A DNA stretch of 54,937 nt, from contig NZ_SMMC01000210.1 in NCBI RefSeq assembly GCF_009711445.1, positions 1-54,937 on the forward strand, in the 5' to 3' direction. Source of the DNA: Curvivirga aplysinae. GTDB taxonomy: Bacteria > Pseudomonadota > Alphaproteobacteria > UBA8366 > Aestuariispiraceae. Below are positions 50,527-51,040 of this stretch, piece after piece. The stretch's first letter is position 1. Every line of letters begins with the position of its first letter. Under the pieces are notes generated by a model. It saw nothing but the letters and a program-made list of their open reading frames with translations, was not told the origin of the DNA and did not search any database. A program made the position numbers and the translations under genes.

Positions 50527-50555
50527 TTGACATTTACTTAGAATTGATCTAACGT
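50527..50555 (+). promoter_or_regulatory. Promoter of the candidate small RNA
   Basis: Perfect TTGACA (50527-50532), 17-bp spacer, and TAACGT (50550-50555), which keeps the key T, A and final T of the -10. There is no gene downstream except the structured segment at 50562-50688. Confidence 0.55.
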
Positions 50556-50561
50556 TTAGTT

Positions 50562-50688
50562 ATTAATCTACCAGTGTCTACCCCATGGGCCCATAACCCA
50601 CCCTTACCCAACACTCGGGCCCTGACACTCAATAAAAAAGACCCCTGTTCGCCTGAGCCGTCTATACTTAGACGGCTCATTTGTCTTT
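50562..50688 (+). ncRNA. Candidate small RNA with C-rich loop
   Basis: About 127 nt from the predicted start to the terminator. AGTGTC (50573-50578) pairs with GACACT (50624-50629), and GGGCCC (50587-50592) with GGGCCC (50617-50622). They enclose a C-rich loop with CCCACCC and ACCC that could pair with Shine-Dalgarno sequences. ATGGGCCCAT (50585-50594) can also pair with itself. The 3' end is an intrinsic terminator. There is no reading frame of note. Family unknown; support is from signals only. Confidence 0.55.
50654..50688 (+). terminator. Terminator of the candidate small RNA
   Basis: Perfect 11-bp stem TGAGCCGTCTA/TAGACGGCTCA (50654-50664, 50669-50679), loop TACT, then TTTGTCTTT. It could instead terminate a pabC transcript, but pabC ends 180 bp upstream. 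Confidence 0.8.
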
Positions 50689-50826
50689 ACATTACAAAAA
50701 ACAACCTAAAGTTTAATGTTTAGCATGTATAACTAGAACTTATTTGCGCGGAACAGAAAAACAGGAAAAAACAAGTAAAAAAAGTTTCATTTTTGTTAAT
50801 TTTTTGCTTTGCCAAATTCACATATA

Positions 50827-50961
50827 GGGGTAACTTTCTTTCAGCGCAGGTAAGCGAGTTGAACAGGGGACACGGTTCAGAGTCGGAAATAATCCAGACC
50901 AACTGTGTATCAACAAGCAAAAATGCGAGAGAGGTCGTCCAAATTGAGACGGCCTCTTTTC
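50827..50961 (+). ncRNA. Second, weaker small RNA candidate
   Basis: ACACGGTT (50870-50877) can pair with AACTGTGT (50901-50908), one G-U pair, followed about 20 bases later by a terminator hairpin. No convincing promoter is seen. It could be part of the leader of the hydrolase gene, which starts 79 bp after the terminator. Confidence 0.25.
50930..50961 (+). terminator. Hairpin terminator upstream of the hydrolase gene
   Basis: Stem AGAGGTCGTC/GACGGCCTCT (50930-50939, 50948-50957), one G-U pair, eight-base loop, then a short T run. It lies in front of a gene start, so it may be an attenuator. Confidence 0.6.
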
Positions 50962-51040
50962 ATATCTACGTCATTTTGCAACTATATTTTATATGCATTG
51001 CATAAACGAAAATCATACCAATCAATATGGGGAGGCAGTT

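Follow-up and report, generated by a model that had tools for sequence, protein, structure and literature searches.

A conserved C-rich small RNA and a candidate antisense sponge encoded in tandem in Curvivirga aplysinae and related Alphaproteobacteria

Sponge RNAs are usually discovered by interactome experiments in model bacteria. CrfA of Caulobacter is a sponge of the alpha-r8 siblings SisA–D (PMC12559287), and QrrX of Vibrio is a sponge of Qrr1–4 (PMC9732341). An anti-Shine–Dalgarno motif has been defined for the cuckoo RNAs (PMC10746234), and CcnA has also been linked to CtrA (PMC8959179). In the literature searched, coverage of which was incomplete, BjrC1505 (RF02356) was mentioned in a single paper, as a table entry, and no description was found of the pair of RNAs reported here.

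The window examined is a 54,937-nucleotide stretch of C. aplysinae DNA. Directly downstream of pabC it encodes what sequence comparison identifies as a genuine small regulatory RNA (sRNA-1), one representative of a family spread across the Alphaproteobacteria; its expression and function we infer. The next unit on the same strand is a candidate antisense partner, RNA-2 (Table 1).

Table 1. Features of the sRNA-1 and RNA-2 region of the window
Feature	Position	Strand	Basis
Candidate sRNA-1 promoter	50527–50555	+	TTGACA 50527–50532, 17 nt, TAACGT 50550–50555
Degenerate CtrA-like box(es)	50527–50552	+	TTGA-N7-TTAG 50527–50541 or TTAG-N7-CTAA 50538–50552
sRNA-1, window copy	50571–50688	+	Covariance-model match: R1 E 3.4e-16; genome-wide E 1.2e-14
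Hairpin 1	50573–50629	+	Outer AGTGTC/GACACT, inner GGGCCC/GGGCCC, C-rich loop; fold and covariation of both helices
Conserved unpaired linker GACCCCTGTTC, probable seed	50640–50650	+	Conservation, predicted fold, RNA-2 complementarity
sRNA-1 intrinsic terminator	50654–50689	+	Terminator prediction; helix 3 covariation
RNA-2 weak promoter, TTTGCC ... TAACTT	50808–50836	+	Aligned with TTGAC-N17-TAnnnT promoters of relatives
RNA-2, candidate antisense sponge	50838–50962	+	Fold z −4.8 to −5.3; conserved in family
RNA-2 antiseed GTTGAACAGGGG	50858–50869	+	Exact complement of family seed CCCCTGTTCAAC; ACAGGGG part predicted unpaired
RNA-2 terminator-like stem, short U-tract	50930–50961	+	Sequence and fold

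Structure and relatives of sRNA-1

The elements that the first-pass annotation had described in this segment were all located. The TTGACA box is perfect, the outer arms lie at 50573–50578 and 50624–50629 and the inner arms at 50587–50592 and 50617–50622, enclosing the loop ATAACCCACCCTTACCCAACACTC, and the terminator stem (50654–50679) has 11 pairs and is followed by TTTGTCTTT. As had also been stated, the segment is free of reading frames, with no ORF of at least 60 amino acids overlapping 50527–50690. The −10 element, TAACGT, is weak; the promoter was not among the sites listed by a promoter scan, and promoter-like sites were not in excess (6 found, 6.3 in shuffles). A comparable TTGACG-N17-TAACGT is carried by RNA-2 of two relatives. 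Folding of RNA 50562–50690 gave −38.1 kcal/mol (z −6.1), which none of 200 shuffles equalled; for the hairpin part by itself z was −2.9. The 5' end may lie some 10 nt downstream of the previously proposed 50562, because relatives have the CtrA-like box at the −35 position and the start of their RNA would be near hairpin 1.

By BLAST the segment was also found in G004, with two copies, and in G001, where a second, tandem copy was spotted by eye; both genomes are of the same family. An initial covariance model was built from four copies, and with it the search of related genomes that had been suggested as a check extended to homologues in 12 of 14 family genomes, with weak matches in other families of the order. 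The window's own genome contains two tandem siblings beside bdhA (3-hydroxybutyrate dehydrogenase; G000:C81:9764-10111, L022), of which the window copy is a diverged sibling with a longer linker. The relatives' sRNA-1 likewise follows bdhA rather than pabC, in the order bdhA, sRNA-1, RNA-2, metY, alpha/beta hydrolase, thioesterase; the window departs from this in that metY is missing, pabC takes the upstream place and the siblings linked to bdhA sit on a different contig.

For 16 copies of sRNA-1, 89.9% of pair cells in hairpin 1 and the terminator held standard pairs, against 72.7% when shuffled, in an alignment that was fitted to the model and so favours structure; slid controls dropped to 30–42% paired. 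Changes on both sides were found in 18 of 22 pairs, taking both hairpin-1 stems and the terminator together, and double changes affected all six pairs of the inner stem. Both hairpin-1 helices therefore covary, contrary to the lack of covariation in the arms that the first-pass annotation had named among the observations refuting its reading.

A further sRNA was observed at G000:C177:25059-25131 (L168, L177). It has the seed GCCTCCCTGTTCAACTT, resembles SorX/suhB below the Rfam cut-offs and is also predicted to be able to pair with RNA-2. This alpha-r8/SorX-like sRNA has similar counterparts with the same seed elsewhere in genomes G005 and G013.

Seed and antiseed

The conserved unpaired region of sRNA-1 is the linker GACCCCUGUUC between hairpin and terminator. 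Its consensus, GACCCC(C)TGTTC(AAC), is nearly invariant across the family members found, CCCTGTTC is present in all f1 copies of alignment A11, and the window linker is predicted to be unpaired except for its first C. The linker, and not the C-rich loop, is probably the binding region.

Downstream of sRNA-1 on the same strand, the stretch 50845–50965 also folds better than expected (z −5.3). The conserved core of RNA-2, GUUGAACAGGGG, is an exact complement of the sRNA-1 linker. In the predicted fold of RNA-2, some antiseed positions are base-paired. In relatives, separate signals flank RNA-2: a TTGAC-N17-TAnnnT promoter in front and a terminator with a U-run behind. The core GCAGGTAAGCNAGTTGAACAGGGG is confined to the three genomes with BLAST-detectable sRNA-1 and was absent from 40 other genomes of the order. 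The shorter GTTGAACAGGGG was found in 14 of 14 family genomes (2 hits for a reversed control), although some of these matches fall on the sRNA-1 reverse strand or at unrelated sites. Of 20 loci examined in the order, a set found partly through the antiseed motif itself, 19 have the antiseed on the strand of the seed and 83–256 nt downstream of it; it was upstream in none and on the opposite strand in one, and the reversed pattern gave none. RNA-2 occurs without an adjoining sRNA-1 in G005 and G013, and Marivibrio has sRNA-1 without an adjoining RNA-2.

That RNA-2 arose by inversion and decay of an sRNA-1 copy was considered and rejected, as the RNA-2 minus strand lacks the hairpin with a C-rich loop and folds worse. 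Other GTTGAACAGGGG sites were also rejected as mRNA targets: most are inside genes or isolated, and no shared target was found. At one site, positions 1501–1516 of G002:C20 (L019/L142), GAGTTGAACAGGGGAC stands 14 nt before a possible ORF start codon, either as an mRNA target or by chance.

Seed and antiseed were found to change together. The combination CUGUUCAAC/GUUGAACAG occurs in one clade and CUGUCCAAC/GUUGGACAG in others; f3 and f4 loci have the seed CTGTCCAAC with GTTGGACAG in RNA-2, and f1 loci have CTGTTCAAC with GTTGAACAG, a matched U-A to C-G change. Over 21 sRNA-1/RNA-2 pairs the longest perfect complement was 9–15 nt, a length reached by none of 500 dinucleotide shuffles in 13 pairs and by at most 5 of 500 in 18. 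The weakest pairs were those of the window (23 of 500 shuffles as long), G001 (42 of 500) and G004 (10 of 500), so that the 9–10 bp complement of the window copy is not clearly better than shuffles. Cofolding with RNA-2 brought a gain of −20.1 kcal/mol for the C81 siblings (0 of 60 shuffles) and −12.1 kcal/mol for the window copy (7 of 60). The C81 siblings are thus predicted to bind RNA-2 more strongly and to be its better partners in this genome. For all four siblings of the genome the seed landed on the antiseed, and mean duplex energy was −27.0 kcal/mol for seed and antiseed of the same group versus −19.6 kcal/mol for other combinations. As would be expected of a sponge, RNA-2 complements the seed common to the siblings, with compensatory changes retained. 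Whole-RNA duplex energies against mononucleotide shuffles were dropped as uninformative, since G+C-rich stems dominate them, and the longest complement, cofolding and the cognate/non-cognate comparison were used instead.

CtrA-like boxes and reach across the class

Upstream of sRNA-1, TTAA-N7-TTA(A/G) was found at 13 of 19 order loci (0.3 expected) and at 16 of 25 class loci (0.6 expected). The spacing is that of the CtrA site, TTAA-N7-TTAA. Most relatives have an intact box; each of the two candidates in the window matches TTAA-N7-TTAA at 6 of 8 positions, and a CtrA-like box is assigned there tentatively, by comparison with relatives. The window genome encodes a CtrA orthologue (NF045991, 384 bits; cut-off 350).

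Rfam searches with the window and its relatives returned no family at cut-off, and a permissive search gave only weak matches to SorX, SorY, suhB and BjrC1505. For RF02356 (gathering cut-off 50 bits) the window gave no match, an f3 relative scored 35.0 bits over the full model and the f1 copy of G009 scored 25.9 bits. In the reverse direction, model R2, built from the present family alone, matched the majority of RF02356 loci at coinciding positions (for example L188, E 5.8e-8). With this reciprocal match, the CtrA-like box and shared neighbours, the wider sRNA-1 family is judged homologous to the BjrC1505 loci, and sRNA-1 belongs, on these comparisons, to a wider family distantly related to BjrC1505.

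Of 385 genomes in a sample of the class, 39 had an RF02356 match. A class-wide seed pattern matched none of the 385, because other orders differ in the seed. About 8 of 25 class loci are followed by an RNA that carries ACAGGttGAGG, which complements CCTCCCTGT with a bulge. In other alphaproteobacterial orders (L184–L186, L188, L192, L193, L200 and L201) a small terminator-ended RNA was observed after the BjrC1505-like sRNA, carrying ACAGGTTGAGG(C/T) or a close variant (L193: ACAGGTCGAGGC). Most of the 89 stretches from a scan of named records were set aside as chance hits, having neither terminator nor box.

Interpretation and comparison with known systems

The reading that we favour, with a probability of roughly 0.7, is that of a family of C-rich base-pairing sRNAs to which an antisense sponge is dedicated, working in the manner of CrfA and SisA in Caulobacter. 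Positions 50571–50690 would encode a base-pairing sRNA-1, one of several siblings in the genome with a common unpaired C-rich seed (core CCCUGUUC) immediately ahead of the terminator, and RNA-2, the next transcription unit on the strand, would be the antisense sponge whose core complements that seed. Both RNAs would be transcribed, most siblings (those with the CtrA-like box) being driven by CtrA and RNA-2 by an ordinary sigma-70-like promoter. The siblings would repress mRNAs by pairing near ribosome-binding sites, and RNA-2, probably together with Hfq, would titrate or destabilise the siblings and so set the regulon's threshold. What the sequences show is that sRNA-1 has a covarying structure and siblings in its own genome, that the tandem is conserved, that seed and antiseed change in matched fashion between clades, and that both RNAs have promoter-like and terminator-like ends. 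Counting against a sponge pair, outside the order only the minority of sRNA loci noted above have a partner, and its complements are bulged.

RNA-2 might instead be the terminated 5' leader, or attenuator, of a metY–alpha/beta hydrolase–thioesterase operon, regulated in trans by the sRNA-1 siblings through pairing with that leader. It does stay upstream of metY or the genes downstream of metY where sRNA-1 has moved (G001, G004) or is missing (G005, G013), and its terminator precedes the first gene of the operon. Against this, RNA-2 is retained in the window, where metY is gone, and stands before the thioesterase alone in several f3/f4 loci; f3 RNA-2 consists of little beyond promoter, antiseed and terminator, and no alternative antiterminator pairing was seen in RNA-2. 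We consider the leader reading unlikely.

Two further readings concern sRNA-1 itself. It could be an ordinary C-rich anti-Shine–Dalgarno sRNA with the CCCACCC hairpin loop as its seed, the nearby complement being unimportant. The loop is C-rich in many members and CCCACCCTTACCC is identical in four copies, but the loop sequence is common to three closely related genomes only and is lost beyond them, whereas linker and complement are kept and co-vary, which makes this reading very improbable. In the first-pass annotation's proposal of a C-rich regulatory RNA, the free-standing, structured, terminator-ended sRNA is upheld by homologues and covarying stems, and the loop as seed is not. The extra GGTAAG of RNA-2 (window 50845–50870) complements CTTACC of the loop (50593–50616), both being present in the same three related genomes; this CUUACC/GGUAAG pairing was set aside, as it is of 6 bp only and restricted to those genomes. 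Almost no weight is given to the window RNA being a mere pabC 3' untranslated region with its terminator, or a functionless decaying copy. Its place directly after pabC, its weak promoter and its divergence from the siblings, with a longer linker, would fit; relatives without pabC upstream carry the RNA nonetheless, and stems, linker and terminator are intact, with pair changes compensated.

More broadly, it is possible, at somewhat less than even odds, that BjrC1505-like sRNAs form a widespread CtrA-controlled alphaproteobacterial family in which, in many lineages, the next unit is a dedicated antisense sponge that coevolves with its target's seed; such a two-RNA cassette would tie the CtrA programme to genes of carbon and sulfur metabolism (bdhA, metY). 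With seed and antiseed side by side, changing together over a whole order and leaving traces in others, a sponge pair could be traced by evolution alone. For the little-studied BjrC1505, CtrA would become the probable regulator, and a seed and a partner would be added; each of these could be tested in relatives that can be cultured, Hwanghaeella among them.

Among known sRNAs, BjrC1505 shares with f3 relatives of sRNA-1 the CUCCCUGU..AACUU..GAGCCGC core, the CtrA-like box and, in places, an adjoining metY or thioesterase; the partner RNA is not part of that Rfam family. The alpha-r8 RNAs (MmgR, RF00519 suhB; SisA–D of Caulobacter) are alike in hairpin, unpaired C-rich linker, terminator and several siblings per genome. 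They differ in that sRNA-1 adjoins pabC, and its siblings bdhA, rather than N-formylglutamate amidohydrolase. The window copy lacks the unpaired 10-mer UUUCCUCCCU that precedes the terminator in alpha-r8 RNAs, its linker being AAAAAAGACCCCUGUUC; f3/f4 relatives have only CCUCCCU, and for RF00519 (cut-off 41 bits) the window gave no match and the f3/f4 relatives 23 and 19.6 bits. C-rich unpaired stretches are also shared with the alpha-r14/cuckoo RNAs (NfeR1, CcsR) and CcnA. The cuckoo/alpha-r14 anti-Shine–Dalgarno motif CCUCCUCCC is absent from the window sRNA-1, and CcnA, unlike sRNA-1, is sited at the replication origin and acts on ctrA and gcrA through a CCCC loop.

Among sponges, QrrX is similarly directed against sibling sRNAs, Qrr1–4, but the sequences are unrelated and RNA-2 stands in tandem with one sibling. 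By analogy, the closest working precedent for sRNA-1 and RNA-2 is CrfA–SisA. Like RNA-2, CrfA is a small RNA in its own right that complements a seed shared among sibling sRNAs; it differs in its G/A-rich stem-loop and its induction by carbon starvation (PMC12559287). RNA-2, unlike CrfA, immediately follows the gene of one of its predicted targets, and the two sequences co-vary.
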